A stretch of DNA of 64,000 nt from positions 11,346,001 to 11,410,000 of the forward strand of contig NW_027331831.1 of NCBI RefSeq assembly GCF_033568475.1. The letters are read 5' to 3'. Position numbers and translations under genes: made by a program. Origin of the DNA: Henckelia pumila. Its lineage: Eukaryota > Streptophyta > Magnoliopsida > Lamiales > Gesneriaceae. This document shows positions 19,934 through 39,593 of this stretch, in pieces; position 1 is the first letter of the stretch; the number at the start of each line of letters is the position of its first letter. Below the pieces are notes generated by a model that did not search any database, was not told the DNA's origin, and saw nothing but the letters and a program-made list of their open reading frames with translations.

Positions 19934-21487
19934 TGATGAAACTTAAAATTTGTAATTATTTATATGTTAAAAATTTTGTTTTAAAATTAAAGTTTAATTA
20001 AAATTATGAAGTTGTATTATTTTAGTGTTATGTGTTTATATTTAAATATTTTACTAAAAAAGTTGTATTTTATGTTTTGCGCAGGTTTGATAAAAATAAA
20101 ATTACTCAAGCTAAAAAGGTCATATTGGAGTAAATCTTAAATCCTGTAGAATAAAAAAAGAGGCATCTTCAACTTTGTAGAAGACAAGAAATTTCAAAAA
20201 CATCATTAAAGTGATCAAAATAATCAAACATCAAAATGGAGACAGATTTACTTTTACTATGACCAGCTTGTAATAAAAATATCATAACTATTTAACCTTT
20301 TACCCAAAAGAGGTGAATTATATGTCAAAACACATTTACACGAAATATACTACGTATTCTATGTTGAATGGAAAGGCTGAATCGGTGGTCTAAAGCATCA
20401 AACATGCCAATTAAAGTTGGGTCATGGTATTGACATTCAAGGAGACAACCACCCACCAACTTTACTATTCCACATTTAATGAGCCTTTGACTCTTGCTCT
20501 CATTTGGCCTATAAATAGATGTGTTGTATAAGCTTTGTAGTATGCAAAAGTGTAGAGAAATTCCTCACTTGTAAAATAGATATTGTGTGTGTAATAATAA
20601 GAGTTTGAGTGTGCATATTTCTCCAAGTTTAAGTATGAAATTTCTTTTATCCTTACTCTTGAGTCTTATGTTCATGGAAAGCTAAATCTTTTTATGTCAA
20701 GGTGAAAAGGTTTCATTGTTGGTCAAGTAAGATTGTTTATATTTTGTATATTCTTTCTTTTTCTATTTTTTATTTTGTTTTACTAATTGATCTTTATTTG
20801 TAGGTATAATTTGGATGATTTATTGTTATCTATTTACATCAAATACTTGGTACCTTGAATGTGGTTACCTTGATTTGTTGTCTAATATGATACAATAAAT
20901 ACTACAATAATTATATACTATAAATATATGTATCAATTTATAATAAAGTCATATATATTATTTAGACAATAGCGTGGCTCTGCCAGTTGTTCTAAATAAT
21001 ATATTGTTATTTGAACTAACATTTATATTCTCGCATCTAACATTTACTTTTCCGCAACTAACATTAATTTTTTCGCAACTAACATTTACTTTCTCGCATC
21101 TAACATTTACTTTCTCTCAACTAACATTTACTTTCTCGCATCTAACATAAAACAAAAGTCATATATTTTATTTAGACGATAGTGTAGCTCTGCCGGTTGT
21201 TCTAAATGAAATATGGTAATTTAATCTAACATTTAATTTTATGTCAATTTATATTTATGCACTTATATATATATTATGGGTACCATATATTAATTATCGG
21301 TTAATCTGATATTAATATAGTGGAAACTATATTATATGATATATTTGTTTAAATATTTAATTGTTTTTTTATGTTTATATTTATGCATCTATATATATAT
21401 TATGGGTATCATGTATTAAATATCGGTTAATCTGATATTAATATAGTGAAAACTATATTATATGATATATTTGTTTATGCATCTACA
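19934..21487 (+). repeat. Element E 5' LTR
   Basis: TATAAATA is at 20510-20517. A block of about seven tandem units of roughly 17-18 bases (CTCGCATCTAACATTTACTTT and variants) lies at 21014-21150. It sits between two direct repeats containing TAGCTCTGCCGGTTGTTC-like sequence (about 20945-21000 and 21155-21210). An AT-rich unit (ATTATGGGTACCATATATTA...) is duplicated at about 21275-21345 and 21400-21475. The 3' LTR has the same organisation. Confidence 0.75.
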
Positions 21488-21706
21488 AAATAATCATCAT
21501 GCTCACCTGCACCATATAAGCGTAGTGAGCCTAGAAGCTCAACATGTCTAATTCTTTATAACAAAGGTTAAAATAATGCATCACATAATCATACTAATAC
21601 ATATACGTGTGCATGCATGCTTGAATAAAAATATTGCATAATCACGAGATAAACATCACTGATCCTGATTCTTAAACATAAGCATAACTTGACATAATAA
21701 GCAAGT
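21488..21706. repeat. Fragment matching the start of element H
   Basis: Immediately after the E 5' LTR, 219 bases starting near GCTCACCTGCACCATATAAGC match 39594-39808, which is the beginning of the reversed LTR H following the E 3' LTR. The match stops at 21706, where E protease sequence begins. The primer site and gag expected here are absent. Confidence 0.7.
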
Positions 21707-22113
21707 GTAAATTTACTTCCTTATTCAGTTTATGAGAAACTTAAGTTGGGAGATTTAAAACCTACATCCGTTACTCTTTTACTAGCCGATAGGTCAATCT
21801 AAATACCTAGAGGTATCATAGAAGATGTGTTAGTTCAAGTCGATAATTCATATATCCTGTGGATTTTATTGTCTTGGATACACAACCAGTAGAAATGCAT
21901 AATGAAATTCCAGTAATATTGGGACGTCCATTTCTAGCAACTTCAAATGCTTTAATTAATTGTCGAAATGAAATAATGAAATTATCTTTTGGAAATATGA
22001 CTTTAGAACTTAATGTGTTCAACTTATGTAAACAACCAATTATTAATGAAGATGAAGATGATAATGCAATAGAAACAATTGTGAAAGAAAATATACACCA
22101 AAAAACTTAAATC
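21707..22113 (+). pseudogene. Element E protease remnant
   Basis: The first part reads SVYEKLKLGDLKP and LLLADRSI with a stop near 21797, then GIIEDVLVQVD. After a frame change, the part opening at 21859 reads VDFIVLDTQPVE and VILGRPFLAT, typical of the Tat/Athila aspartic protease C-terminal half. The catalytic DLGAS-type motif is upstream of the deletion point and missing. It cannot be active. Confidence 0.75.
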
Positions 22114-22133
22114 AACAATCTGAAGTTTGTTTA

Positions 22134-23527
22134 GTGGAAAGTGTTTTTAAATCAAAGTTATTGGAAGAAATTAATGAACTTGAAGAAGTAAAAGAAGATA
22201 ATCATCCAAAACTTGAATTAAAACCTTTGCCAAAAGAACTAAAATATGCTTTTCTTGGTGAAAATCAAACATATCCTATTGTAATATCTTCTACCTTCTT
22301 ACCAAAACAAGAAGAAAATTTAATAACATTACTTAAAAAACACAAAAATGCAATTGGATGGACTTTGAAGGATATAAAAGGTATAAATCCTTTAATCTGC
22401 ACACATAGAATTCACTTGGAAGAAAATGCTAAAACATATCAACAACCTCAAAGAAGATTAAATCCACACATGAAAGAAGTTGTTAAAAATGAAGTTTTAA
22501 AACTATTAGATGCCGGAATTATTTATCCAATCTCGGATAGTAAATGGGTAAGTCCAATACAAGTAGTACCAAAAAAATCAGGCATCACTGTTATAAAAAA
22601 TGAAAAGGGAGAATTATTACAAGCTAGGATTCCATCTAGTTGGCGTATGTGCATTGATTATAGAAATTAAATGATGCAACTAGAAAAGTCACTTTCCGTT
22701 ACCATTTTTAGATCAAATTTTAGAGAAAGTGGCAGGTAATCTTTATTATTGTTTTTTGATGGGTATTCGGGGTATTATCAAATACCAATATCATTAGAAG
22801 ATCAAGAAAAAACTACTTTCACTTGTCCTTTTGGAACTTTTGCATTTAAAAGAATGCCATTTGGTTTATGTAATGCTCCGGCTACTTTTCAAAGATGCAT
22901 GCTAAGTATTTTTAGTGACATGATTGAAGAATTTGTGGAAATTTTTATGGATGATATTACTGTTTTTGGAAACTCATTTGAAAACTGTCTTAAAAATTTG
23001 GACGAAGTTTTAAAAAGATGTGAAGAAAAAAATCTTGTTTTAAATTGGGAAAAATGCCACTACATGGTTAAATTCGGAATTGTGTTAGGTCATGTCATAT
23101 CTGAAAAAGAAATTGAAGTTGATAAAGCTAAGGTTGATGTTATTGCTAATTTACCATCACCAAACACGATTAAAGAAATTCGATCATTTTTGGGTCATGC
23201 GGAATTTTATAGAAGATTCATAAAATTTTTTAGCATAATATCGAAACCAATTTCAAATCTTTTAACAAAAGATGCACAATTTGAATGGACTCAAGAATGT
23301 GAAACTGCTTTTAAAAAGATAATTAATCTTTTAACTACATCACCTATTTTACAACCTCCTGATTGGTCTTTACCATTTGAATTAATGTGTGATGCAAGTG
23401 ATTATGCTATAGAAGCCGTGTTAGGACAAAGAAAAGAAGGTAAACCTCATGTGATCTACTATGCTAGTAGAACCTTAAATAGTGCTCAAATCAATTATTC
23501 AACAACTGAAAAAAGTTACTTTCAGTA
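22134..23527 (+). pseudogene. Element E reverse transcriptase and RNase H start, frameshifted
   Basis: The first ORF (22134-22670) carries the N-terminal palm: LDAGIIYPISDSKWVSP and MCIDYRN. Several one- or two-base losses between 22665 and 22760 break the frame in the ATRKDHFPLPFxD region. The second ORF (22749-23528) has MPFGLCNAPATFQ, the catalytic FMDDITVFG, IRSFLGHAEFYRRFI and RNase H MCDASDYAIEAVLG. It ends at another indel near 23512. Base use is strongly AT-rich. The order and motifs fit Tat/Athila Ty3/gypsy pol. Confidence 0.85.
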
Positions 23528-25099
23528 GTGTTTGCATTAGATAAATTTCGATCCTATTTAATTGGTTATACTACTATTGTTTATACTGATCATTTTGCCA
23601 TAAAATATTTATCAAATAAACAAGATGCTAAGCCGAGATTAATAAGATGGATTTTGTTGTTACAAGAATTTGATCTTGTAATAAAAGATAAAAAAGGAAA
23701 AGAAAATGTAGTAGCCGATCATTTATCAAGAATAATTTTTGAATCGTCTCAAAATGAAATACTAATAAGTGAAAATTTTCCGGATGATCAACTATTCTAT
23801 GCTACTACTATACCTTGGTTTGCTAATATTGTAAATTTTCTTGTGACAAATAAAATTACTTCTCATTGGAGTTCACAAGATAAAAAAAAATTCTTGAAAG
23901 AGGTCAAAAAATTTTATTGGGATGATCCTTATTTGTTTAAGTATTGTCCTGATCAAGTTTTTCGACGATGCATACCCTACAATGAGGTAAGTAGTGTCAT
24001 TAAATTTTGTCATTCTGAGGCATGTGGAGGTCATTTTTCGTCAAAGAAAACAGCTGCAAAAATCTTTCAATGTGGATTTTATTGGCCTTCTTTATTCAAA
24101 GATACGCATTCATTTTGCAAATCTTGTAAAAATTGTCAGAAAATGGGTTCAATTTCAAAACGAAACATGATGCCTTTAAATCCAATCATGATTATTGAAA
24201 TATTTGACAGTTGGGGAATAGATTTTATGGGTCCATTTCCATTATCTTTTGGATTTACTTATATTTTAGTGGCTGTTGATTATGTTTCAAAATGGATTGA
24301 AGCAATTGCATGTAGAACTAATGATCAAAAAGTTGTGATAAAATTTTTGAAAGAAAATATTTTTAGTCGATTTGGAATACCTAGAGCTATAATAAGTGAT
24401 GGGGGAAGTCATTTTATAAATAAATCATTTTTTTCGTTGTTAAGAAAATATGGTATTACACATAAAGTTTCTACTCCATATCACCCTCAGACGAATGGTC
24501 AGGTTGAACTTGCAAATAAAGAAATAAAACCAATTTTGGAAAAAACGGTCAATCCAAATCGAAAAGATGGGTCTTTAAGATTAAGTGATGCATTATGGGC
24601 ATATAGAACTGCATTTAAAACATCATTGGAGATGTCACCATATAGATTAATTTTTGGTAAGCATTGTCATCTATCTGTTGAAATTGAACATAAAGCTTAT
24701 TGGGCTATTAAAGCATTTAATACTAATTTAGATGATGCATCTAAATTAAGAAAATTGCAACTGAATGAACTAGAAGAATTAAGAAATGACGCATATGAAA
24801 ATGCAAAGATTTATAAAGATAAAACAAAAGCCTTTCATGATAAAAATATTATGAGAAAATCGTTTGAAATTGGACAAAAAGTTTTACTTTATAATTCTCG
24901 CTTGCATTTGTTTCCAGGAAAACTTAGATCACGATGGACAGCTCCATATGTTGTAAAAAATGTTTATCCTCATGGTGCTGTTGATGTTGAAAATTCTAAA
25001 AATAATAATGTGTTTAAAGTTAATGGGCAAAGGCTTAAATCATTTTTAGAAAATGAAATTCATAATGATGAGTTTATGCCTTTATATGATCCAAATTAA
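23528..25099 (+). CDS. Element E RNase H end and integrase
   Basis: A 523-residue open frame starts inside RNase H ([31 protein letters not shown]). It continues through an integrase with the HHCC zinc site ([10 protein letters not shown] and CKSCKNCQ), the catalytic triad in [16 protein letters not shown] and [10 protein letters not shown], and a C-terminal DNA-binding part ending at ATG-less stop 25097. Integrase would join element DNA to the chromosome. The frame itself is intact, but it is separated from upstream pol by frameshifts. Confidence 0.85.
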
Positions 25100-25113
25100 T
25101 TGTTACTTATATT

Positions 25114-25131
25114 TTCATTTTATTTTTGCAG
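25114..25131 (+). promoter_or_regulatory. Splice-acceptor-like site before accessory ORF 1
   Basis: A T-rich run ending TTTTATTTTTGCAG lies just after the integrase stop and 114 bases before the Cys-rich ORF start. It has the look of a plant 3' splice site. A spliced subgenomic mRNA is an inference. Confidence 0.4.
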
Positions 25132-25244
25132 AATTGAGTTCACTTCCCGTTAAGTGGCAGATAACGGTACTCCGTGACTTTTTTTAGTCGGTTTTATTTC
25201 AATTTCTCAAAATAATTGAAATTTTTTTTTTCTTTATTTTCATA

Positions 25245-25685
25245 ATGGATGAAGCTATCAAAGAACATGGTAAATATTTTCCATCTGTTTCTAAAAAAGT
25301 TTTGAGAATGATTTATGAAGGCAAATGTGAAAGATTGAGAATGCTTATACAAAAAGGAATTTTGGAGGATATTCGTCTTATAATTGAAGCCAAAGTTCTA
25401 TTGGGTGGTGCAGTTCCAAAATTTTTACTTGTTCGAAATATGTCTGGACTAGAAAAAAGCACCTATGCAAAGAAAAGGAGGGTCAAGAGGTTAGATGTTT
25501 GTCATAAATGTGCCAGATGGACTTGTGATAGACGATGCAGATCTTTGGGATATGTTTCCACAAATAGAGAAGATAAAATTGATTTCATTAAGAATGAGCT
25601 GAGTAAAGAGTCATTAGATGATATCTCATTGACTCTTGAGACGCATTCTAGTGGAGATGTGCAAAGTCAACTTCTCCGTTTATGA
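25245..25685 (+). CDS. Accessory ORF 1 of element E: small basic Cys-cluster protein
   Basis: The protein has 146 residues and starts at ATG 25245, after integrase and in front of the LOG ORF. I do not recognise its family with certainty. A helical, charged N-terminal half (residues 1-70) is followed by a basic stretch KKRRVKR (76-82). Directly after it comes a cysteine cluster, CHKCARWTCDRRC (Cys86, 89, 94, 98), that could bind one zinc ion. The C-terminal third is acidic and Ser-rich. The basic-stretch-plus-CHxC layout recalls small nucleic-acid-binding proteins of plant RNA viruses such as the carlavirus Cys-rich family, several of which suppress silencing. That is layout resemblance only. 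The ORF is intact although the neighbouring pol is broken. Confidence 0.65.
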   Translation: MDEAIKEHGKYFPSVSKKVLRMIYEGKCERLRMLIQKGILEDIRLIIEAKVLLGGAVPKFLLVRNMSGLEKSTYAKKRRVKRLDVCHKCARWTCDRRCRSLGYVSTNREDKIDFIKNELSKESLDDISLTLETHSSGDVQSQLLRL

Positions 25686-25948
25686 AAACTATTCCAAGCA
25701 CAACGTCATGGTAATGGTCTTTGGGAATTTGACTAAAAAAGACCCTATTTGCCAATTTATAAGAAAATTGGATGTTAAGCCAACCCTCGACTCATAAATA
25801 TTAAAGGAACACTGTGAGCCACAATCACTGTATATACGCATGCATGTCATTATTATATATTATTATTTTTATTGTTTTTGTTATTATGTTCACACCTGTA
25901 TTCCTATTTCTGTCGTATTCCTTGTTTTCCTTATAAAATCACTCAACT

Positions 25949-25966
25949 ATCTCTATATTTTTGCAG
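25949..25966 (+). promoter_or_regulatory. Splice-acceptor-like site before the LOG ORF
   Basis: ATCTCTATATTTTTGCAG ends 18 bases before the LOG start codon. It is T-rich, ends CAG and resembles the site before accessory ORF 1. It suggests expression from a spliced element RNA, which the sequence alone does not prove. Confidence 0.4.
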
Positions 25967-25984
25967 AAAAGAAAAGAAAAATAC

Positions 25985-26629
25985 ATGGCAGGATCTGCTT
26001 CACAAAAATTAAAAAATATTTGTGTATTTTGTGGTTCTAATACTGGGAAGAGTGAAATATTTGTTGATGCAGTAATTAATCTTGGAAACAAGTTAGCAGA
26101 GAGAAAAATTCACTTGGTATACGGAGGAGGTAATATTGGGTTAATGAGATCTATTTCAACAGCAGCTCATCTTGGAGGTAGTCAGGTTTTGGGTACTATT
26201 CCTACAACTTTATCTTTAGCTGAAGGAAATATTACAGGTGTTACGATTGGGGAAGAGTTGAAAGTTTCATCAATGTACGAAAGAATAACTAAAATGATAG
26301 AAAATTCTGATGCTTTTATTGCCTTACCTGGTGGTTTTGGTACTTTAGAAGAAATTTTTCATGTTGTTTCTTGGGCACAACTTAATATTCATAATAAACC
26401 TGTTGACTTGTTGAATATCAATAACTATTATGATGATTTGTTTACTTTTCTTGATGTAGCTGTGGAACAAAATTTCATTTCAAAAAATTCACGAAGGATG
26501 CTCATCTCTGCTTCGAATGAAGACCAATTAATTGATGATCTCCAAGCCTTTGTTCATCAACCTGATTCGGCTATAACAAATATCATTTGGTCTCAACCAA
26601 CCAGTAAGAAAAGGAAACTGGATCATTGA
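25985..26629 (+). CDS. LOG: LOG-family cytokinin riboside 5'-monophosphate phosphoribohydrolase in a retrotransposon
   Basis: The intronless 214-residue ORF starts at ATG 25985; an in-frame extension upstream lacks an ATG. It has family-typical length and motifs: CVFCGSNTGK (13-22), LVYGGGNIGLM (44-54), the conserved Arg100 in YERITKM, and the signature PGGFGTLEE (115-123) followed by WAQLNIHNKPV. LOG enzymes split cytokinin nucleotides into active free base plus ribose phosphate, usually in cytosol and nucleus. Host plant LOG genes normally have several introns, so an intronless copy suggests RNA-mediated capture. It sits between integrase and the 3' LTR of element E, in the same orientation, with the AT-rich codon use of E. 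A basic KKRK (208-211) near the C-terminus could act in nuclear import. Substitutions include D for G in the KPVGLLN motif. Activity is inferred. Confidence 0.85.
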   Translation: MAGSASQKLKNICVFCGSNTGKSEIFVDAVINLGNKLAERKIHLVYGGGNIGLMRSISTAAHLGGSQVLGTIPTTLSLAEGNITGVTIGEELKVSSMYERITKMIENSDAFIALPGGFGTLEEIFHVVSWAQLNIHNKPVDLLNINNYYDDLFTFLDVAVEQNFISKNSRRMLISASNEDQLIDDLQAFVHQPDSAITNIIWSQPTSKKRKLDH

Positions 26630-26933
26630 TTCAACATGTCACGAAATGGTTTGTGTTTGTTCCTTATCTTCAATAAATTCCAGGTGATATCTCTTTCATC
26701 ATATACTCTTTATTTTTCTTTAAAAAGAAAAACTAAAAACAATGTCATATTCAGGTTTGGGGGAGGGTTTATCTCTAAAAAAAAAATTATTAAAATTTTA
26801 AAAATAAAAAAAATATATTGCTATAATAATATTTATTTTTCTTTTTCAATGGCAGAGTAAGGAGCGAAAAACTCCTGACACGCATTAGTTTTTATTTATC
26901 ATATTATCACAATAGATTAGATTTTAATATTCC
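26630..26933 (+). other. Element E sequence between LOG and insertion F
   Basis: AT-rich untranslated sequence with one ATTCCAG|GTGATA splice-like site near 26680. The last five bases, ATTCC (26929-26933), are the target duplication of element F, repeated at 36895-36899. Confidence 0.5.
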
Positions 26934-28311
26934 TGATAAGTGTATTTTATACACTTAATTTATATATGATTTTAATTGTTAAATATTTGTTTCGAGCAGA
27001 TTTATGTGGGTATTGTGTTGTTTTTGTGATTGTAGGAAATTATGGTGATTTTGTAAATTATGAAATTTTGAGGAGAAAAATAAGAAGTTTAGAAGAGAAA
27101 GAGTAAAGAATGGAGAAAGAAGAAAAGAGAAGAAACGTACAGAAGAGAAGAAGAGAAAGAATGAACAGTGTTGGGCTTTCTTATTTGGGCCAAAATTCAG
27201 CGTTTGTTTTTAGCGCCTAAAGAAACGCTATCGCGCTGTTTCTATTTCTCTGAGAATTGGAGTCGAGATAAAGGGGCGCCCGCGCCGTTCTTAGAGCGCC
27301 CGCTCCGTGGCTGAATTGGAAAGATTTTATTAAGACGGGCAATTAATTCTTGGGCTTGATTTTGTGGGCTTGTGTGCACGCTATAAAAGGATTTTTGGGC
27401 AGACTTGAAAAAGGAGGAGCCGCCACAATATTTTATACAGAAATCAGGTTTGATCGTGATTGGCGGAGGATTTATCTTGAGCTTAATCTGAAGAACGAAG
27501 ACGGAGTTCGATAGTCCGGACACGGCGTCGACGACGGATTTGTTTCTTATCTTTTATTTAATTCTGAACATGTTTGAATTTATTATTTATTGTTTTCAGA
27601 ATTTTAGTATTACTAATTTTTATAGTCTAGAGGTCGGATGAAACCTGGTGTAGACACTTTCATGAATTTTTGATTTTATTGAATTGGATTTCTTTTAGAT
27701 TAATTGTTTTTTCTAGAATTGATTGTCTTTTCAATTATCTGATCAATAATTGATTTGTTATATTTATTTGAAATCATTGCTCGGGAGAGGGGATTTTGAA
27801 TAGGACATTAGAAACTACACTGTTAATTATTTATACAGCTCGGGAGAGTGTATGATTTTAACAGAGCTTTTAAAAAAAAGAACATTGTTTTGTGATAGAT
27901 CACTGCGATAAATTCTTAATAGGGATATTAGAATTTAATTGTAGTTGATAAACATTATTTGTTGCTCGGGAGAGGGAAATAATAAACGTAAGTGTTCTTG
28001 GCTATTAATTGATTGGAATTCATGAAAATTAATTAATTAGGATTGATTGTTGTTGAAACCAGGTGAAATCTATACCTTTAGACCGTTATTCTCTGATTGA
28101 ATTTTAATCTGAAAGTTGTGTGCGTGCTTTTAAATTATCTGATTATTTATTTTATTGCAAAATTTTCAAAGTTTGATTTTCTAGATAAAGTTTGGACTAT
28201 TCTAATTACAAGTACTAAATATTTTCATTTTACTCCCTGTGGGATCGATATCTGAATTATTCACTATATTAAAACTTGACACTCGTACGCTTGCGAGGAA
28301 AATTCACAACA
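26934..28311 (+). repeat. Element F 5' LTR
   Basis: The U3 part contains GCGCTATCGCGC and GGCGCCCGCGCC words (27218-27310), then TATAAAAG at 27382-27389. GCTCGGGAGAG occurs three times in the downstream half (27779, 27839, 27963). Confidence 0.9.
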
Positions 28312-28316
28312 AGTTT

Positions 28317-28333
28317 TTGGCGCCGTTGCCGGG
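28317..28333 (+). other. Primer-binding site of element F
   Basis: TGGCGCCGTTGCCGGGG lies a few bases after the LTR end. This sequence is typical of Athila/Tat elements, usually assigned to tRNA-Asp or a related tRNA. Confidence 0.8.
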
Positions 28334-28451
28334 GAGTAAATTTTGATTATTTTTTAGTCCTGTTACCAATTAGTCTAGATTTTAATTTAGAGTTTTTATT
28401 TTATTTTCTAAGTTACTAATTAATTTTTTTCTTATCTTTTAATTGCAGTCT

Positions 28452-30695
28452 ATGCGACGATCTCAAAGTGCTAATTCTCTACTGTTTGATCCGGAGATCG
28501 AGCGCACTACACGTACTTTAAGACGAGCTAGAAGAGAAGAAATTGAAAGAATGGCTGAACAAGAAGCAAATCAAGCTCCCCTAGTGCCAATTAGAGATCA
28601 CTTCCGACCGACGATCCAGACTCACTATTCTGGAATCGCTCGAGGAATTATCAATGCAAACAATTTTGAGCTGAAGCCTGCATTGATAAACATGGTTCAA
28701 TCGAACCAATTTAATGGGAGTGCCACAGCTGATCCTTATCTACATCTCAGGACCTTCTTAGAAATTACTGATATGGTAAAATTTAATGGTGTTCCTGAAG
28801 ATATTATACGCTTACGCTTGTTTCTATTTTCTCTCAGGGATCAAGCCAGAAGTTGGTTGCAATCACTGCCACTTGGAAGCATCACTACTTGGGAGGTGAT
28901 GGCAGAAAAATTTCTTGCAAAATATTTTCCTCCTGCCAAAACCACCCAACTGAAGATCGAGATCAGCACCTTCCGGCAGATGGACACTGAACAGTTATAC
29001 GAGGCGTGGGAAAGGTATAAAGAATTATTAAGACGTTGTCCTAACCACAATTTTGCAGATTGGGAACAGATCGAGTGGTTTTACAACGGACTGAATGCGC
29101 CTACAAAGATGAATGTCGATTCTGCTGCTGGAGGTACTATATTTGCGAAGGATCATGTTCAGGCTTATGATATGTTGGAGGAGATGACGGTCAATAGTTT
29201 CCAATGGCCATCGGAGCGTATAGGAGTAAAGAAGCCAGCTGGAGTGTATGCAGTGGATCCTCTCATGTCCATCACTGCTCAGTTATCTACACTGACTACA
29301 CAGGTAGCTTCTCTGAATAAAATTAATATTGCAGATTCAACTGGAGTTGAAGGATCACCGGCCATAGAGCAAGTCAATTATATAAATCCAAATGGCTACC
29401 GAGGATATGGAGCGTACAGAGGTAATCCTATTTCCAATACTTTTCACCCTAATTTGCGGAATAATGAAAATTTTTCATATACTAACAATACTAATAAGGG
29501 TGATGGTAAGTTGTCTTTGGAGGATATGGTTAGTACCTTTGTGCAGGAATCAGGTAAGCGGATGGCAAGAACTGAGTCTCGCCTTGACAGCTTGGAGACG
29601 CACATGACCAACATGGGTGCTGTATTGCAATCCATGGAGACTAGTATTGGGCAGTTGACGAATGCACTGAAGGACAACAATCGCGGCCAGTTTCCTTGCA
29701 ATACTGAGGTGAATCCCAAGGAGCAGTGCAATTCCATAATAGTGCGGAGTGCCAAAGACGTTGGAGTTCAAATTCCTACTGTTGCGGATAAGAAACTTGA
29801 GAAAAAAGTTAAGGAGAAAGATAAGGAGCTTGAATCTGAGCCAAAACCGATGTATAAGCCTTCACTTTCATACCCGCAAAGGTTCAAGAAGAAAGCATTG
29901 GACGAGCAATTTTCCAAGTTCTTGGAGATTTTTAAGAAGATTCACATCAATATTCCCTTTGCTGAAGCTTTAGAACAAATGCCGAATTATGCGAAGTTAA
30001 TCAAGGAGGTGATGTCCAAGAAGAGGAGGCTGCTAGAGAACGAGGTAGTGAATTTAACGGAAGAGTGCAGTGCGGTGCTCCAAAAGAAGATGCCACAAAA
30101 TCTTAAGGATCCAGGGAGTTTTACTATTCCTTGCACTATTGGCTCTTCTTATTTTAATAATGCACTTTGCGATTTAGGAGCTAGCATTAATCTCATGCCC
30201 TTGTCTGTTTTCAGGAGCTTAGGACTTGGTGAGGTGAAGCCCACCATGATCGCGTTGCAGTTGGCTGATCGATCTATCACATATCCGCTTGGAATCATTG
30301 AAGATGTTTTGGTAAAAGTAGATAAATTTATTTTTCCAGCGAATTTTTTTGTGTTAGATATGGAGGAGGATGCAAACATGCCCCTGATATTGGGGAGACC
30401 TTTCTTGGCCACTGCCGATGCCAAGATAGAGGTGAAGAGAGGTGCATTGTCAATGGGTGTGGACGGTGAGAGTGTAATTTTTAATATATTCATGAAGTCA
30501 TCTAACACCCCTATTGAAAAATTATGCTTGATAGAGCCGGTTATGAATTTGGAGGGTCGTTCAAAAGCCGATATTGCGATTGATTCATCGAACGCGAGAG
30601 CGCCAAAACTACCAAAGAAGGCCACGAAAAAAGCAAAATTTAAAAGGCGGTTCGTGGAATTTATTTGGCAAGTGAAAGAGAAGGGGAAGAATTAA
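28452..30695 (+). CDS. Element F gag with aspartic-protease-like domain
   Basis: The ORF is about 747 residues from ATG 28452, directly preceded by a splice-acceptor-like TTTTAATTGCAG. The retrotransposon gag domain covers about residues 75-230 (TADPYLHLRTFLEI, ARSWLQSLP, EKFLAKYFPP, LRRCPNHNF). A variable coiled middle follows, then a Lys/Glu-rich stretch. The Athila-type protease region is at about 540-680 with ALCDLGASINLMP, LQLADRSITYPLG and LILGRPFLATADA, so the catalytic Asp is present. The ORF ends after a basic tail, where other Athila elements would continue into reverse transcriptase. It is open throughout, which fits a young element relying on helper pol. Confidence 0.88.
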   Translation: MRRSQSANSLLFDPEIERTTRTLRRARREEIERMAEQEANQAPLVPIRDHFRPTIQTHYSGIARGIINANNFELKPALINMVQSNQFNGSATADPYLHLRTFLEITDMVKFNGVPEDIIRLRLFLFSLRDQARSWLQSLPLGSITTWEVMAEKFLAKYFPPAKTTQLKIEISTFRQMDTEQLYEAWERYKELLRRCPNHNFADWEQIEWFYNGLNAPTKMNVDSAAGGTIFAKDHVQAYDMLEEMTVNSFQWPSERIGVKKPAGVYAVDPLMSITAQLSTLTTQVASLNKINIADSTGVEGSPAIEQVNYINPNGYRGYGAYRGNPISNTFHPNLRNNENFSYTNNTNKGDGKLSLEDMVSTFVQESGKRMARTESRLDSLETHMTNMGAVLQSMETSIGQLTNALKDNNRGQFPCNTEVNPKEQCNSIIVRSAKDVGVQIPTVADKKLEKKVKEKDKELESEPKPMYKPSLSYPQRFKKKALDEQFSKFLEIFKKIHINIPFAEALEQMPNYAKLIKEVMSKKRRLLENEVVNLTEECSAVLQKKMPQNLKDPGSFTIPCTIGSSYFNNALCDLGASINLMPLSVFRSLGLGEVKPTMIALQLADRSITYPLGIIEDVLVKVDKFIFPANFFVLDMEEDANMPLILGRPFLATADAKIEVKRGALSMGVDGESVIFNIFMKSSNTPIEKLCLIEPVMNLEGRSKADIAIDSSNARAPKLPKKATKKAKFKRRFVEFIWQVKEKGKN

Positions 30696-30735
30696 TCCCG
30701 TGAAAGTCGGGCTGACGACTTTAAACCAAGCGCTA

Positions 30736-30753
30736 CTTGGGAGGCAACCCAAG
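30736..30753 (+). other. Hairpin after gag of element F
   Basis: CTTGGGAGGCAACCCAAG is a perfect 6-bp stem with a six-base loop, 41 bases after the gag stop. I recall a similar TTGGGAGGCAACCCAA box downstream of pol in Athila-type elements. A role in RNA export, packaging or translation is a guess. Confidence 0.5.
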
Positions 30754-30894
30754 CATTTTTTTTATTTTATTTTATTTTATTTGTTTTTATTTTCAGTTTA
30801 TTTAATTTTTGTTATTTAATGTTTTAAGTTTTTTTTTATTTTAAATTTTTGAGCTAATTTTTCTTAATTTTCAAAAATTTGCAGGGCTCCAGAA

Positions 30895-31215
30895 ATCTCA
30901 AATTCGAGCAAGAGGCGCGCCCGCCCATGTACGGGAGCGCCCGCGCCTTACCTGGACCAAAGTGGAGTTATTTTGCGACTTAAAAGCGCGTCCGCGCCAC
31001 TCCATTCGAGCCCCCGCGCCTTCCCTTCGTTGCGGTAATACACAATAGCTCATACACAAGCGCTATCGCCCTCCGGAACCGCGCTACACAAGCGCTAACG
31101 CGCTCCCTCTAAGCGCAAGATCTTGCGCTATCGCGCCCGTCAACCGCGCTTAATCTAAGCGCTATCGCCCTCCGAAACTGCGCTACACGAGGCGCTATCG
31201 CGCAACATCTGATAT
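30895..31215 (+). repeat. GC-rich motif array in element F interior
   Basis: About 320 bases hold many copies of GCGCTATCGC, GCGCTACAC and GCGCCCGCGCC words in an otherwise AT-rich element. The same words occur in the F LTR U3 (27218-27310). The array ends shortly before the second ORF and could be a second promoter region or a relic of LTR sequence. Confidence 0.55.
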
Positions 31216-31732
31216 TTAAAGCGCAACATCTGAGATTTAAAATCCTAATTTGCTCCTCCTCACGATCTCTCTTTTGAGTCCCGCTCTAAATCTCACATTT
31301 TGGCACAATCATCGAAAATCTTGCACTCAACAAAATGTCATCATCTCTGGGATGTTGATCTTCATTACAAGGCCATTGTAAATCTGGGATTCTCAGAATT
31401 TGATCTTGCTCCATCCACGCCTCGCACAGAACATGGGAATCTACCGGGGTTTGGGACGTTTTCGTTCTTGAATGGTACAAAGCTAAAATTTTATCTATTA
31501 CATTTATGCCGTGATATAAGTTGGTGTGTTGAGGCTGTTTGGGTGTTTGAATTGTGGGGTGAAGAACATTTGGTAGTGAACTTTCTATATTATTGTCTTC
31601 ATGCATGCCAAGTGTTTGTTAAATTGTTTGGGTTAAAGTTGTGTTTGCACATTGCTGGAGTCGGTTGAAGTTTAGTGTTGGGATTGTGAGAATTCCATCT
31701 GTAATTGATTTGAGTTGAATTATTGAGTTACA

Positions 31733-32612
31733 ATGCCACCGAAAACCAAAGGGAAAGGAGCAATTTCTTCGTCCTCTACTGCTTCATATGATAGACACAG
31801 ATTTTGGAATGCCACAGCAGAGGAGTATTGTTTTGATGTAATGGAGCGAGGGACGCACAATGAAAGAGGAATGAGTTTGAGAGAGCATAGTGCACCGGCG
31901 TTAATTGAAGCTAAGAGAAGAGGTTGGGAGACATTTGTTAGGAGTCCACCAGATGCTGTTATATCATTGATTCATGAGTTTTATGCAAATTTAATGGTCA
32001 AAGACGTGAATCTGAAAGTTCGAGTTTGAGGAAAATTGGTGCCTTTTGATAAGAGTACAATTAACCGTCTCTATGAAATGCCGGATTTGGACATTTCTGA
32101 TGATGAGTATGAGGTATTTAAGAATGAGTCATATCCAGAGAATATTATAATTCAGACTTTGTGTCATGATGGGGCGGAATGGAAGAGGAATTCAAAGGAT
32201 GAAGCTGTTGCATTTCCATCCATCTTTCTTAGACGAGAAGCGAATAATTGGCATGAGTTTGTGGCTGCCAGAATTTTGCCATCTGGGCATACATCTGATG
32301 TGACTAAGGTTAGAGCTGGTCTGGTGTACTGCATTGTCACTGAAAAATCTGTTGATGCTGGGAGGGTGATTCAGGAGTCTATTATTGCTGCAGTTAGGGG
32401 TTCCTCGACTATCAGTTTACCCCACTCGTCTTTGATTACTCAACTTTGCCGGTTAGCTGGTGTTGTGTGGGATGATACGGAGCAGATTCTTCCAATTCGA
32501 GGTCCTATAAGAATTACTGGTGCATTGAGACGGGACAAGTAGAAGAAAGCAGCCAGTACTTCTGAACAGGCAGCTGAACCACCGCAACCCTCGGATCCAC
32601 TACCACACTTTG
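31733..32612 (+). pseudogene. Element F ORF2, first part: putative plant transposon protein domain
   Basis: The frame from ATG 31733 reads through TGA at 32027 and TAG at 32540 to the Cassandra insertion at 32613. The sequence resembles the putative plant transposon protein domain found with Athila-type elements: FYANLMVKDVNLKVRV, FDKSTINRLYEMP, WHEFVAARILPSGHTSDVTKVRAGLVYCI, SLITQLCRLAGV. Its function is not known to me. The two nonsense changes are single-base events in the same frame, so damage is light. It continues at 33584 after the insertion. Confidence 0.65.
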
Positions 32613-33583
32613 TGTAACGCCCCACTGTATCAAGACGGGTCTTTTCAGCGTGCTTATGTCCTCACTCACACGCACCCTGGAAAACTTCCCAGGGGGTCAC
32701 CCATCCTATAATTGCCCCAAGTCAAGCACGCTTAACTTTGGAGTTCTTATGTGATGAGCTTCCGAAAAGAAGATGCACCTTCTTGATATGAGCAGTACAT
32801 ATGAAATCTTTTAAGCCCTCCTCAACTATGTAGTCCCATACCTACACAGTCTCAGAATCCCCTCTCATTCCGGCACGGGATCGGTTCATTCATGTCTCCC
32901 TCCGCCTAGAAGCCTACCAAGAGCCGCTCATTGTCCGTGCAACCTCTTGGCACCGGCGATCACTCCCTGCCTCATCAGCCCCGGGCGTCACATGCCCACC
33001 AGCTTCCGCTTGGTTCGTCCCCGAACCATACCGTACTAAGAGAGGTCGGCTTTGATACCATTTGTAACGACCCACTGTATCAAGACGGGTCTTTTCAGCG
33101 TGCTTTTGTCCTCACTCACACGCACCCTGAGAAACTTCCCAGGGGGTCACCCATCCTATAATTTCCCCAAATCAAGCACGCTTAACTTTGGAGTTTTTAT
33201 GTGATGAGCTCCCGAAAAGAAGATGCACCTTCTTGATATGAGCAGTACATATGAAATCTTTTAAGCCCTCCTCAACTATGTAGTCCCATACCTACACAGT
33301 CTCAGAATCCCCTCTCATTCCGGCACGTGATCGGTTCATTCATGTCTCCCTCCGCCTAGAAGCCTACCAAGAGCCGCTCATTGTCCGTGCAACCTCTTGG
33401 CACCGGCGATCACTCCCTGCCTCATCAGCCCCGGGCGTCACATGAGAATCCCCTCTCATTCCGGCACGGGATCGGTTCATTCATGTCTCCCTCCGCCTAG
33501 GAGCCTACCAAGAGCCGCTCATTGTCCGTGCAACCTCTTGGCACCGGCGATCACTCCCTGCCTCATCAGCCCCGGGCGTCACA
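32613..33583 (-). mobile_element. Element G: Cassandra TRIM with 5S-rRNA-like LTRs
   Basis: Two 380-base LTR copies (32613-32992 and 33063-33442) flank a 70-base interior. A third, partial copy (about 33443-33583, matching the last 140 bases) follows. The duplication CTTTG is perfect (32608-32612 and 33584-33588), so the partial copy is inside the unit. On the minus strand the primer site TGGTATCAAAGC (33049-33060) adjoins the 33063-33442 LTR, giving minus orientation. Each LTR contains a minus-strand 5S-rRNA-like segment (about 32693-32760 and 33143-33210) with AGTTAAGCGTGCTTG and GGATGGGTGACC, the internal pol III promoter parts. These features define Cassandra elements. No protein is encoded. 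Confidence 0.9.
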
Positions 33584-33872
33584 CTTTGAGCCAGCACCTT
33601 CCCATTTGGAAGGACCTATGTCACTACCGACGCATCCGGCCACTGAGTATTCTACTCGTGATGATTCTATGGCCGTGCTTTCTCAGATGAAGAAGCAGTG
33701 GAAGATGATGCGAGCACACATGACATATATGCATGACTTCACTGCCGCTCTTGCCCAGAATTATCCGCCCACTGTTGTGCCTTATCCAGTTCCTCCGCAG
33801 TGGTCTTCTGATGATACTGATGCTGCTGCACCTTCGTTCCATGGAGATGATGATGATGACGCCGAGTCCTGA
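33584..33872 (+). pseudogene. Element F ORF2, C-terminal part
   Basis: The sequence resumes in a frame that matches the first part once the 976 inserted bases are discounted. It reads FEPAPSHLEGPM, a Met/His-rich helix (MKKQWKMMRAHMTYMHD), a Pro-rich stretch and an acidic tail (HGDDDDDAES), stopping at 33870-33872. Only the Cassandra insertion and the two upstream stops break this ORF. Confidence 0.6.
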
Positions 33873-35514
33873 TGCTCGGTGTCGAAGGTATGAGTCCCTT
33901 GTTCTTTTTATTGTTTTTAATCATTAGGGACAATGATTACATTAAGTTTGGGGGATGAATCAATGTTTGATTTAGTTTGATTTAGTTGTTTGATTGTTTG
34001 GTTGAAAGTTGAGTTTTGAATTTCATAGATAAAATTTTTTGTTGAGTTTAGTTGTTTTTTGTTGAGTTGAGTTGAATTTAAAAGAAGTTGAGAAAGAAAT
34101 GGATGCATGGCCAATGAAAAATATTTTTGTGCGATAACTGAAATCCATGATTGTCCACCTATCTGACAAATATTTTTGAAAATATGGAACCAATTAGATG
34201 AACAATTTCCTATATACTCTGTGATTAATGCTTGAATCTGATTTTTGAGACATACAGACATAGATATGATTGAGGCATTGTTTGAAATTTTTGGGCCTGA
34301 TTTTATTGAATTTATCCTTAGTTGCCCATTTGAGCTACACGTATATTAGTACATTGAAGTACGAGAAAATCTGAATTTTTTTGTGAAAATCATCGTTAAC
34401 TGCTGATGATTATTTTTTTCTGCACTGATTGAGATTTGTATGATTTAATTGTGGATTGAGACTTGTCTAGAACTAGTTCGAACACTCTTCGAGGCGAAAT
34501 ACGGGCAAAACTGAGATTAGAAATGATTTAGGCAATTTTTCTGAATTCGTTTGAGCCTTTCAAGCTACCTAATTATCTATTTTATCCCTAGTACCTTGTT
34601 TGCGCTTTATTGAAAATCGAATGGCATGCGTGTAAAAGTGTGATTAAACCCCCATTCATAATTATTTCAAGGTCCTACATTGACTACCTGAATAGCCTAT
34701 ACACTATTTCCTACCTTTAAGGGAGTAATTTGAATGCTAAAATGTTATATGCTCCTAGTTTTATTTGTGAGAAAAAGATTGGTGTGGTGGATGAATTGAA
34801 AAGATGAAAAAAAGGTAGTAGAAAAAAGAGTTGAAAAATGTGGTTGAAAAAGTTGTGAAAGAAAGAAAAAATTTGTGAGAGAGTTGTGAAAAAGTTGAAA
34901 AATTGAGTGAAGTGAAATAAGTGTGAAATTGTGAATGAAAGGAGTTGAAGTTAAATTGAGCATAAAATTATAAATTACTCTTATTTTGAATTCTTATCCT
35001 TTATTTGTAGCCATGAGCCAGACCTTACATTATAAGCTGAATAAGTCCTATTGACCGAGTCTCAGTTGCCCAATATACTAGTCGAGAAGAGTTGCGAGAA
35101 TTTAGCTTATGGACTGTTGATTGATGCTTTTAATGATTATGAATTTTGATCTAAACACTTACACACTATTATTCTTTGCATTTACCTATTTGTGAGTGTT
35201 TTTTATTTATATCCTATATTTGATTCTATGCTATCCTTGAAAAGTCCTCATGATCTATGAATGTTTGAATTGAATTTGGAGAATGGTGTTTTGAACTTGA
35301 GTTGCGGAGATTGTGAGTTTATGCGGTTATTATTTTGTGATTGGCTAAAACTTTTAAGTGTTAGTAGGTTGGATATGATTTGGATTTGATATTTTTGAAA
35401 TCATTGTTGAGGCCATTGCTCCATAATATTTCTTGACTATTCTTGTTGGAGAATGAGTTTTTGGAATTTAATAGTTTTGCTCGGGACTAGCAAAAGTCTA
35501 AGTTTTGGGGAATT
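33873..35514 (+). other. Element F 3' untranslated region
   Basis: About 1.6 kb without a gene. A purine-rich, GTTGAAAAA-repeating stretch lies at 34755-34960. The polypurine tract is TTTTGGGGAATT just before the 3' LTR at 35515. Confidence 0.6.
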
Positions 35515-36894
35515 TGATAAGTGTATTTTATACACTTAATTTATATATGATTTTAATTGTTAAATATTTGTTTCGAGCAGATTTATGTGGGTATTGTGTT
35601 GTTTTTGTGATTGTAGGAAATTATGGTGATTTTGTGAATTATGAAATTTTGAGGAGAAAAATAAGAAGTTTAGAAGAGAAAGAGTAAAGAATGGAGAAAG
35701 AAGAAAAGAGAAGAAACGTACAGAAGAGAAGAAGAGAAAGAATGAACAGTGTTGGGCTTTCTTATTTGGGCCAAAATTCAGCGTTTGTTTTTAGCGCCTA
35801 AAGAAACGCTATCGCGCTGTTTCTATTTCTCTGAGAATTGGAGTCGAGATAAAGGGGCGCCCGCGCCGTTCTTAGAGCGCCCGCTCCGTGGCTGAATTGG
35901 AAAGATTTTATTAAGACGGGCTATTAATTCTTGGGCTTGATTTTGTGGGCTTGTGTGCACGCTATAAAAGGATTTTTGGTCAGACTTGAAAAAGGAGGAG
36001 CCGCCACAATATTTTATACAGAAATCAGGTTTGATCGTGATTGGCGGAGGATTTATCTTGAGCTTAATCTGAAGAACGAAGACGGAGTTCGATAGTCCGG
36101 ACGCGGCGTCGACGACGGATTTGTTTCTTATCTTTTATTTAATTCTGAACATGTTTGAATTTATTATTTATTGTTTTCAAAATTTTAGTATGAACTAATT
36201 TTTATAGTCTAGAGGTCGGATGGAACCTGGTGTAGACGCTTTCATGAATTTTTGATTTTATTGAATTGGATTTCTTTTAGATTAATTGTTTTTTCTAGAA
36301 TTGATTGTCTTTTCAATTATCTGATCAATAATTGATTTGTTATATTTATTTGAAATCATTGCTCGGGAGAGGGGATTTTGAATAGGACATTAGAAACTAC
36401 ACTGTTAATTATTTATACAGCTCGGGAGAGTGTATGATTTTAACAGAGCTTTTAAAAAAAAAGAACATTGTTTTGTGATAGATCACTGCGATAAATTCTT
36501 AATAGGGATATTAGAATTTAATTATAGTTGATAAACATTATTTGTTGCTCGGGAGAGGGAAATAATAAACGTAAGTGTTCTTGGCTATTAATTGATTGGA
36601 ATTCATGAAAATTAATTAATTAGGATTGATTGTTGTTGAAACCAGGTGAAATCTATAACTTTAGACCGTTATTCTCTGATTGAATTTTAATCTGAAAGTT
36701 GTGTGCGTGCTTTTAAATTATCTGATTATTTATTTTATTGCAAAATTCTCAAAGTTTGATTTTCTAGATAAAGTTTGGACTATTCTAATTACAAGTACTA
36801 AATATTTTCATTTTACTCCCTGTGGGATCGATATCTGAATTATTCACTATATTAAAACTTGACACTCGTACGCTTGCGAGGAAAATTCACAACA
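35515..36894 (+). repeat. Element F 3' LTR
   Basis: Matches 26934-28311 with about a dozen differences. TATAAAAG is at 35963-35970. It is followed by the duplication ATTCC (36895-36899). Confidence 0.9.
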
Positions 36895-36899
36895 ATTCC

Positions 36900-38042
36900 A
36901 TATATATTTAAATTGCAAACTACTAAGAAAATAAAGTCTTTTTGTATACATGTTGTTTACACTTCTTTTTATCAATTTAATAGAAAATATATAATTGATG
37001 AGATATAAGTTATAAATAATATATAATTGTGTGTTTTCAAATAACATATTTTCTAAAAATTTTATGAATATATAGTTAAAGTGATATTGATTGAATGAAT
37101 AATAACATGTATAATTGAAGGAATTAAATTGTAAAAGTGCAATCTATACTCACATAAATTTTGTGAGTGAGAGGTGAGAATTGAGAAAACAACTCATAAG
37201 CTTTTATTGATTATTAAGAAATGGTTGATTACTAGATTAAACCCATTTTGAAAAAAAAAATTGTGCATATAAAAATTGACTGCAAAGTTGTTTGAAGTTT
37301 GATTGTAATAATGTAGAGTATTAATATCACTACTATAGTTCTCATGGTAAATTTTTAATAGATTTACCTCATAAATAAATAAATAAACTTTGAATTAGAA
37401 AAAAAAAGAGAAGAAAAAATGTTACATATTCAAAGTTTATTGTAGTTATTTGGTTTTGTAAAAACAACTTTGCAGCCAAGTGCAAAAAGAAAAAAAAAAC
37501 AAAAAAAAACATTGAAAAAAGACAAATCAAAATGGGTTTATTCTTTGTAAATTATCCTACCTTATTTTAAATATTAGGTTATTTGATTGTCTGCTTTACA
37601 TATTATCCATTTTCAATAAGTGTATAATTTTCTTCCAACTCCATGAGTGAAAAACAGCTATATATGAAATATCATAACCCGAGAGAATATGGAGTTGAGA
37701 CTTTTACATTAAAATTCTTGATGATATACATGTTATGAAAATGATTTCTATTATCATTTTGATTATATTTTTCTCAAAGTTTTTAGAAAATATTTATATA
37801 AAAAATTATATATATTTAATATTTTGATATTGTGTGAAATATATACGTATAACTCATCCAATTATATATTAATATATTAGTTGATAACAAGATTTATAAA
37901 TAAACATATGATCTCCTTACAAGTGTGTTTTAAAATGTTAAATTTTGCAAATTTGAATATATATATTAAGGAATAAAAATCTAACTTGTAATTTTATGAT
38001 ATTTTATTACTAAGGGACTAGTAATTAGCCGGTTTGGGGGTG
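36900..38042 (+). other. Element E 3' untranslated region and polypurine tract
   Basis: AT-rich sequence with no credible ORF. The tract GGTTTGGGGG at 38031-38040, followed by TG, abuts the 3' LTR start TGATGATACTT (38043). Confidence 0.6.
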
Positions 38043-39593
38043 TGATGATACTTAAAATTTGTAATTATTTATATGTTAAAAAGTTTGTTTTAAAATTAAA
38101 GTTTCATTAAAATTATGAAGTTGTATTATTTTAGTGTTATGTGTTTATATTTAAATATTTTACTAAAAAAGTTGTATTTTATGTTTTGCGCAGGTTTGGT
38201 AAAAATAAAATTACTCGAGCTACAAAGGTCATATTGGAGTAATCTCAAATCTTGTAGAATAACAAAAGAGGCATCTTCAACTTTGTAGAAGACAAGAAAT
38301 TCCAAAACCCTCATTAAGATGATCAAAATAATCAAACATCAAAATGAAGACAGATTTATTTTTACTATGACCAGCTTGTAATAAAAATATCATAACTATT
38401 TCACCTTTTACCCAAAAGAGGTAAACTATATGTCCAAACACATCTACACAAAATATTCTACGTGTTCTATGTTGAATGGAAAGGCTGAATCGGTGGTCTA
38501 AGGCATCAAACATGTCAATTAATGTTGGGTCATGGTATTGACATTCAAGGAGACAAGCACCCACCAACTTTACTATTCCACATTTAATGAGCCTTGGACT
38601 CTTGCTCTCATTTGACATATAAATAGATATGTTGTATAAGTTTTGTAGAGTGCAAAAGTGTAGAGAAATTCCTCACTTGTAAAATAGATATTATGTGTGT
38701 AATAATAAGAGTTTTAGTGTGCATATTTATCCAAGTTTAAGTATGAAATTTCTTTTATCCTTACTTTTGAGTCTTATGTTCATGGCAAGCTAAATCTTTT
38801 TATGTCAAGGTGAAAAGGTTTCATTGTTGGTCAAGTAAGATTGTTTATATTTTGTATATTCTTTCTTTTTCTATTTTTTATTTTGTTTTACTAATTGATC
38901 TTTATTTGTAGGTATAATTTGGATGATTTATTATTATCTATTTACATCAAATACTTGGTACCTTGAATGTGGTTACCTTGATTTGTTGTCTAATATGATA
39001 CAATAAATACTACAATAATTATATACTATAAATATATGTATCAATTTATAATAAAGTCATATATATTATTTAGATAATAGCGTGGCTCTGCCGGTTGTTC
39101 TAAATAATATATTGTGATTTGAACTAACATTTACTTTTTTGCATCTAACATTTACTTTTCCGCAACTAACATTTATTTTTTCGCAACTAACATTTACTTT
39201 CTCGCATCTAATATTTACTTTCTCGCAACTAACATTTACTTTCTCGCATCTAACATAAAACAAAAATCATATATTTTATTTAGACGATAGCGTGGGTCTG
39301 CCAGTTGTTCTAAATGAAATATGGTGATTTGATCTAACATTTAATTTTATGTCAATTTATATTTATGCACTTATATATATTATGGGTACCATATATTAAT
39401 TATCGATTAATCTGATATTAATATAGTGAGAACTATATTATATGATATATTTGTTTAAATATTTATTTGTTTTTTTATGTTTATATTTATGCATCTATAT
39501 ATATATTATGGGTACCATGTATTAAATATCGGTTAATCTGATATTAATATAGTGGGAACTATATTATATGATATATTTGTTTATGCATCGACA
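38043..39593 (+). repeat. Element E 3' LTR
   Basis: Matches 19934-21487 over its length. TATAAATA is at 38618-38625, and the 17-18-base tandem block is at about 39121-39255. It ends TTATGCATCGACA. Sequence H follows directly. Confidence 0.75.

Follow-up and report, generated by a model that had tools for sequence, protein, structure and literature searches.

The question raised by a 64,000-nucleotide stretch of the Henckelia pumila genome (assembly GCF_033568475.1, contig NW_027331831.1, positions 11,346,001 to 11,410,000 of the forward strand; hereafter the window) is whether a retrotransposon can carry a LONELY GUY (LOG) gene and a second small gene as regular cargo, and whether this cargo serves the element. 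An initial annotation of the window described two frames between the integrase and the 3' long terminal repeat (LTR) of an LTR retrotransposon, here element E, one encoding a LOG protein and the other a basic protein with a cysteine cluster. Both frames are real, with the positions and the lengths (214 and 146 residues) reported for them. The annotation missed the likeness of the Cys-cluster protein to the viral nucleic-acid-binding family NABP, after which we name it. Our analysis of the window's own genome (885 Mb) revealed that NABP and LOG together are the standing cargo of a Ty3/gypsy LTR family whose members measure about 12 kb and number in the hundreds, many being recent insertions.

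The size of this family was estimated from genome searches for the LOG domain (PF03641) and for NABP, and all figures from the two match lists are lower bounds. The PF03641 search returned 375 first-look candidates; the best 150 were scored, all exceeded the cut-off, and the LOG domain was stop-free in 146 of these 150. The NABP search returned 490 candidates, and 136 of the best 150 scored were without a stop. Among the matches listed there were at least 202 distinct places, made up of 150 LOG places and 52 NABP places without a listed LOG; as the LOG figures are lower bounds, absence of LOG from these 52 of 150 NABP places is not implied. At the other 98 of the 150 listed NABP matches, a listed LOG lay 849-911 bp downstream on the same strand. 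Plant LOG genes bear introns. The LOG matches are unlike such genes, being single-frame matches over the full domain.

Twenty LOG copies were fetched with about 10 kb of surrounding DNA, and reverse transcriptase (RT), integrase (INT), NABP and LOG were colinear on one strand in every one; protease (PR) was also matched in 18 of them, the exceptions being copies L014 and L021. So as not to choose by LOG, a second set was formed by a random draw of 20 NABP places among the 149 that were listed and lay outside the window. LOG was found downstream in 19 of these and was missing from one (one of the draw, L036, is the same copy as the LOG-chosen L012). The LOGs of the random draw were open from residue 1 in 14 copies, from residue 2 in one and from residue 10 in one; one contained a stop and two were frame-split. 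An arrangement common to so many copies excludes chance, and the proposal that LOG is element cargo held in other copies. These counts also bear on the idea that a processed host LOG pseudogene was inserted once, in the window copy. The lack of introns in the window LOG would fit such an origin, but the recurrence of the gene at the same position in 20/20 fetched and 19/20 random copies refutes it, and we regard it as virtually certain to be wrong. In one fetched copy, L021, pol has diverged in pieces (RT 52-75% and integrase 61-98% identical), whereas NABP (86%) and LOG (90%) resemble those of the other copies; positions 3811-7457 of L021 give the impression of a past recombination of cargo and pol with another lineage.

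Two complete copies, L011 (11.7 kb) and L018 (11.9 kb), displayed the features of a Ty3/gypsy LTR retrotransposon: paired LTRs of about 1.67-1.80 kb (99.46% and 99.89% identical, respectively), 5-bp target-site duplications read from the flanks (GTTAT and ATTCT), a primer-binding site (PBS), and gag-pol with the order RT-RNase H-INT. A polypurine tract (PPT)-like TTTGGGGG precedes the 3' LTR in both. The PBS TGGCGCCGTTGCCGGGGA, which we take to be complementary to plant tRNA-Asp, was present exactly or with one mismatch in 14 of the 20 fetched copies; none was found in the other six fetched stretches. L018 contains a single open gag-pol frame of 1762 codons followed by NABP (183 codons) and LOG (212 codons, at L018 positions 6625-7260), and the gag-pol of L011 is split once by a stop. 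Open copies of the family thus exist, and the family order is 5'LTR-PBS-gag-pol-NABP-LOG-PPT-3'LTR. Among 16 further copies with upstream DNA, 11 gave an LTR pair (626-1245 columns) with a divergence K of 0 to 0.022 and five gave none; with L011 and L018 included, the LTR pairs of 10 of the 13 measured copies were at least 99% identical. If 1.3e-8 substitutions accumulate per site and year, these 11 insertions would date from the present back to about 0.8 million years, and the window copy from about 1.7 million years ago.

The initial annotation had assigned element E to the Tat type. In the L018 polyprotein gag, RT, a single RNase H and integrase were matched, together with an aspartyl protease that scored weakly and below its cut-off. 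The RNase H occupies residues 1184-1287 and the integrase zinc finger begins at 1388, and the polyprotein gave no further RNase H match. The Tat lineage is defined by a second RNase H (aRH), which lies between RNase H and integrase in angiosperm Tat elements, according to the text available from PMC6317226. The missing aRH rules out this lineage and suggests an Athila-like family, Athila being the remaining OTA clade.

Examination of the LOG frame revealed clear membership of its family. The window LOG matched PF03641 with E=7.5e-35 (120.4 bits), and the L018 LOG scored 134.3 bits against a cut-off of 27. The best solved relative of the window protein was Arabidopsis At2g37210 (E=7.6e-60), which we take to be LOG3. 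Family LOGs are 51% identical to this protein and 49% to At5g11950 (presumably LOG8), and these two are 71% identical to one another; the capture of a host transcript proposed by the initial annotation would therefore be old, or evolution has been fast. The PGGxGTxxE motif is kept, and the window copy has the PGGFGTLEE form, an Arg at residue 100 and no introns, as first described. All 38 element LOG sequences compared (37 distinct copies, with two frame-split copies left out) end in PTSKKRKLDH, which resembles a nuclear localisation signal; no such basic C-terminus occurs in the aligned part of At2g37210.

The residues of the active site gave a mixed picture. For CgLOG, PMC4979012 reports in its available text that Arg99 and Glu122 are catalytic, that Met96, His97, Lys100, Glu125 and Trp129 form the prenyl-group site, with the same five residues in AtLOG3, OsLOG and CpLOG, and that Ala at AMP-binding and catalytic residues nearly abolished activity, except in S19A. 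The catalytic pair is kept in the element proteins (R98 and E121 of the L018 LOG) and is invariant in ten aligned sequences. At the prenyl site Met and Trp are kept but the other three of the five residues differ: Tyr stands in place of His and Ile in place of Lys in 38/38 sequences, and Glu has given way to His in 37/38, with Tyr in the remaining one. His, Lys and Glu stand at these positions in the five LOG chains of known structure compared, one of which is a variant of another that differs within the PGGxGTxxE motif.

The initial annotation had called the enzyme cytokinin-activating. An ordinary cytokinin riboside 5'-monophosphate phosphoribohydrolase captured from a plant might favour, through local cytokinin, the dividing cells in which the element spreads. 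Family membership, the catalytic Arg and Glu, PGGFGTLEE, the retained prenyl-site Met and Trp and the Arabidopsis protein as best solved relative all agree with this proposal; the family-wide change of His97, Lys100 and Glu125 (CgLOG numbers) to Tyr, Ile and His speaks against it, and we consider it unlikely. With three of the five prenyl-site residues replaced, cytokinin production cannot be assumed. The kept catalytic residues suggest a LOG-family enzyme with a shifted pocket, for which "cytokinin-activating" is an assumption.

NABP is 183-184 residues long in nine aligned copies. The L018 protein scored 25.9 bits against Viral_NABP (PF05515; cut-off 23) and 23.1 bits against Carla_C4 (PF01623; cut-off 20.9), and the L011 protein scored 25.8 and 22.8 bits; passing of both cut-offs is established for these two copies alone. 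The shortened window protein, with 18.2 and 17.2 bits, fell below both. Both viral families were matched by 9/9 aligned members at E values up to 1 (best 4.2e-06 and 3.1e-05), the only other Pfam match among the nine being one at E=0.14 to a poxvirus family. Shuffled NABP matched either viral family in 0/10 cases, with other weak matches in two of the ten. By sequence, no NABP relative was found in the PDB (a profile gave E 0.73 or worse), in PHROGs, or among 496 pattern matches in viral_contigs, a collection that may contain few plant RNA viruses.

The protein, basic and with its Cys cluster, probably belongs to the flexivirus CRP/NABP family, the match being modest enough that convergence could still explain it. 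In the latter case NABP would be unrelated to the viral proteins and would have come by a basic Cys-rich stretch on its own, its origin being perhaps an env-like protein or a zinc-finger protein of the host. The small excess over the Pfam cut-offs, the lack of a PDB relative and the empty viral_contigs search fit convergence, but the matching of two related viral families by all nine members and by none of ten shuffles makes it rather improbable. Viral CRPs act as silencing suppressors and pathogenicity determinants, and that of chrysanthemum virus B is also a transcription factor that induces hyperplasia (PMC12172455, from the text available).

Putative expression signals accompany both genes. 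In 21/21 copies the LOG ATG is preceded, at a distance of 45-55 bp, by TATAAAA, and T[T/C]GCAG lies 116-148 bp before the NABP ATG in 20/20 copies with a whole NABP (the analysis covered 20 of the 21 copies); in young copies the presence of such motifs is not evidence of function. A splice acceptor just before the LOG ATG of the window (TTTTTGCAG) was rejected as a family feature, being found in none of 20 other copies.

We give about even odds (a probability of roughly 0.5) to the reading that these accessory genes help the element, NABP by acting against silencing or on transcription and LOG by nucleotide hydrolysis. NABP would bind nucleic acid and either protect element RNA from silencing or alter host transcription, in the manner of viral CRPs. 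The LOG-family enzyme could be made from its own transcript, given the conserved TATA box and its own ATG, and would hydrolyse a nucleoside 5'-monophosphate by ordinary LOG chemistry. As the base/prenyl pocket is remodelled, its substrate may be an unusual cytokinin ribotide or another nucleotide. Between them, the two proteins would provide the element with a more permissive cell. A more specific form of this proposal, which we hold to be doubtful, is a host-handling module that pairs a flexivirus-type NABP directed against RNA silencing with a LOG-fold hydrolase re-specialised from cytokinin ribotides to another nucleotide. That nucleotide could be a modified one or a nucleotide signal of plant immunity, the immune part being pure speculation.

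To whatever end they are carried, the two accessory genes stay together and show constraint. Comparison of the window copy with L018 gave dN/dS values of 0.33 for LOG (bootstrap 0.17-0.79; 14 synonymous and 17 nonsynonymous changes), 0.36 for NABP (0.16-0.78), 0.28 for INT (0.17-0.48) and 0.24 for RT (0.09-0.58). The NABP-LOG spacer differed by 10.7% between these copies, like the synonymous sites of LOG (dS 0.105). Among 15 LOGs from the randomly drawn NABP copies, pN/pS was 0.25 for the 56 pairs of middle distance and 0.39 for the 14 distant ones. The LOG-chosen copies together with the window gave pN/pS values of 0.35 for LOG (21 copies), 0.53 for NABP (20), 0.54 for INT (15), 0.50 for RT (18) and 0.57 for PR (14), in a set that favours LOG.

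Several results weigh against a helping role. The dN/dS values rest on few changes. After a rough correction, in which neutral change since insertion was taken as half the LTR distance and subtracted from the window-L018 values, dN/dS was 0.16 for LOG, 0.24 for NABP, 0.06 for INT and about 0 for RT; the cargo therefore looks constrained, but less than pol. The 35 closest LOG pairs of the random-draw set were near-neutral (pN/pS 0.80). We read the trend with distance as neutral decay once a copy has inserted, combined with constraint on the lineage that replicates. The 20 LOG-chosen copies, hand-picked from a list ranked by score, are biased towards open LOG frames, and the NABP match lies only 2-3 bits above the Pfam cut-offs. 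Loss of catalysis by the element LOG is possible, since three of five prenyl-site residues differ, one of them a Lys that is part of the adenine site as well. AlphaFold models were uninformative (mean pLDDT 45.0 for NABP and 41.5 for LOG). Host LOG genes were absent from the matches listed for two pieces of At2g37210 (101 and 46 residues): each search listed 150 matches, at 50-54% and 59-63% identity, a level much lower than expected of a host LOG exon, although not every place was checked for an element.

A passenger account holds that a recent amplification carried both genes with it and that neither is of any use to the element. Many copies are young (the 11 LTR pairs above), so open frames prove little, and the near-neutral closest pairs and the weaker constraint on cargo than on pol would be expected of passengers. 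Such an account does not sit well with the pN/pS of 0.25-0.39 in older pairs, with the window-L018 value for LOG, whose bootstrap upper bound is 0.79, with a LOG that keeps its catalytic residues and PGGxGTxxE at 49-51% identity to AtLOG3/8, or with the joint presence of NABP and LOG in 19/20 random copies, and we judge it quite unlikely.

The window copy itself is an old, broken member of the family (Table 1). Element E spans 19934-39808. An alignment of its two LTRs over 1770 columns contains 75 mismatches, and the 5-bp sequences that flank the element on the outside are unequal (ATGCT versus TACTT). Pfam matched RVT_1, RT_RNaseH, Integrase_H2C2 and rve in its pol remnant. As the initial annotation noted, pol is broken, with matches to L018 pol in three frames, at least 3 frame changes and 3 in-frame stops, and gag is missing; the PBS is also absent, and the internal DNA starts at a point equal to L018 pol residue 624. 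Other parts of that description needed adjustment. The NABP frame stops where 15 of 20 copies continue and is a shortened form of the 183-184-residue frame. The LOG, called intact, is open but drifted: it is 92% identical to the L018 LOG and carries a two-residue insertion and a Gly-to-Arg change in GLMG, the latter also seen in three other sequences. Its mechanical open reading frame (ORF) opens at TTG 25961, and the 214 residues are counted from the ATG. The pair lies downstream of the integrase but not directly before the 3' LTR, because a nested element separates LOG from E's own 3' LTR.

Table 1. Features of element E and of the element nested in it, in window coordinates
Feature	Position	Strand	Basis or remark
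5' LTR of E	19934..21703	+	95.5% identical to 38043-39808; about 91% to LTRs of copy L011
pol remnant: protease end, RT, RNase H, integrase	21701..25099	+	tblastn with L018 open polyprotein
TTGCAG, splice-acceptor-like, upstream of NABP	25126..25131	+	consensus match only
NABP/CRP-like frame, 146 aa, shortened relative to 183-184 aa of open copies	25245..25685	+	
TATAAAA box, 53 bp before LOG ATG	25932..25938	+	consensus match only
LOG-family phosphoribohydrolase-like frame, 214 aa, intronless	25985..26629	+	PF03641, PDB relatives
Nested second LTR element with flanks	26929..36899	+	LTR pair, flanks, gap in match to L011
Polypurine-like TTTGGGGG directly before 3' LTR	38033..38040	+	same motif before 3' LTR of L011 and L018
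3' LTR of E	38043..39808	+	LTR alignment

Both LTRs of E contain a 21-bp tandem repeat, AACTAACATTTACTTTCTCGC, in 6.4 copies (21014-21148 and 39122-39256); the unit also occurs in LTR stretches of L011 and L018 and could be a regulatory array. The nested element proper (26934-36894) has ATTCC on both sides and LTRs 99.06% identical over 1381 columns, and is younger than E. It contains a 750-codon gag-protease frame and a frame for a "putative plant transposon protein" (PF20167, 32036-32542), together with a 141-bp unit present twice in tandem (33304-33583, 98% identical) and a repeated 382-bp stretch (32613-33444, 97.6% identical). A tblastn search with the RT and integrase of E gave no match in 26934-36894. 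Another gypsy-type RT/RNase H/integrase stretch, with an RT 38% identical to that of E, lies at 7686-10376; the DNA flanking L011 on both sides is about 66% identical to parts of it, so L011 seems to be lodged in an element related to this one. Of the 885 Mb of the assembly, about 822 Mb fall in four contigs of 183-234 Mb, which suggests very few large chromosomes.

Steinbauerova et al. (2011) reportedly found "two Athila-like elements with similarities to LOGL4". The available text of PMC9289625 credits that study for YgdH/LOG-like cargo and itself reports a YgdH domain, linked to LONELY GUY, in Ty3/gypsy consensus sequences of Citrus sinensis and C. clementina and, with a relaxed filter, of Populus trichocarpa. 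Such cargo is therefore already known in kind. The initial annotation, made without a search, knew of no described LTR element with this cargo. Among the open-licence papers searched for LOG, NABP or silencing-related genes carried by retrotransposons, only PMC9289625 reported LOG-type cargo, and a NABP+LOG pair, an altered pocket and a selection test were not found. LOG or NABP terms were found in none of PMC7264820, PMC11963269 and PMC11728184.

LTR elements are considered to need no more than Gag-Pol to transpose (PMC7264820), and in most extra ORFs of plant elements no domain can be recognised (PMC9289625). With two small proteins amenable to ordinary assays, the role of accessory ORFs in plant LTR elements becomes a testable question. 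Selfish DNA may here have kept a small kit for handling its host. If the host-handling module considered above is real, a plant LTR retrotransposon would possess an accessory gene set whose logic parallels that of the accessory genes in complex retroviruses, and genes would have been exchanged between plant RNA viruses and LTR elements. Element copies could also inflate LOG gene counts in plant annotations.

Among the closest known systems are the YgdH elements of Citrus and Populus, which are likewise LTR retrotransposons with a LOG-family extra domain in several consensus sequences; the available text of PMC9289625 is silent about a NABP partner, about the residues of the pocket and about the age and selection of those elements. 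The Ty3/gypsy elements of orchids that encode an AlkB m6A demethylase share a separate host-type enzyme ORF beside gag-pol in many copies, but those are large, Ogre-like elements with a dual RNase H and another enzyme, whose activity was shown in vitro (PMC9289625, text available). The CRPs of carlaviruses, allexiviruses and mandariviruses have, like NABP, a basic stretch adjoining a Cys cluster (PF05515/PF01623; PMC12172455, text available), whereas the putative NABP of the present family is encoded in a chromosomal LTR element and is divergent. The Arabidopsis LOGs At2g37210 and At5g11950 share with the element LOG the sequence family, the catalytic Arg/Glu and PGGxGTxxE; the element protein differs in being 51% and 49% identical to them, respectively, in its replaced prenyl-site His, Lys and Glu, in being intronless and in its KKRKLDH tail. 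Finally, the Athila clade comprises gypsy elements that lack a second RNase H and have extra ORFs between pol and the 3' LTR, as described in the available text of PMC6317226 and PMC7264820; in contrast to these, the extra ORFs of the present family have identifiable enzyme and viral-type domains.

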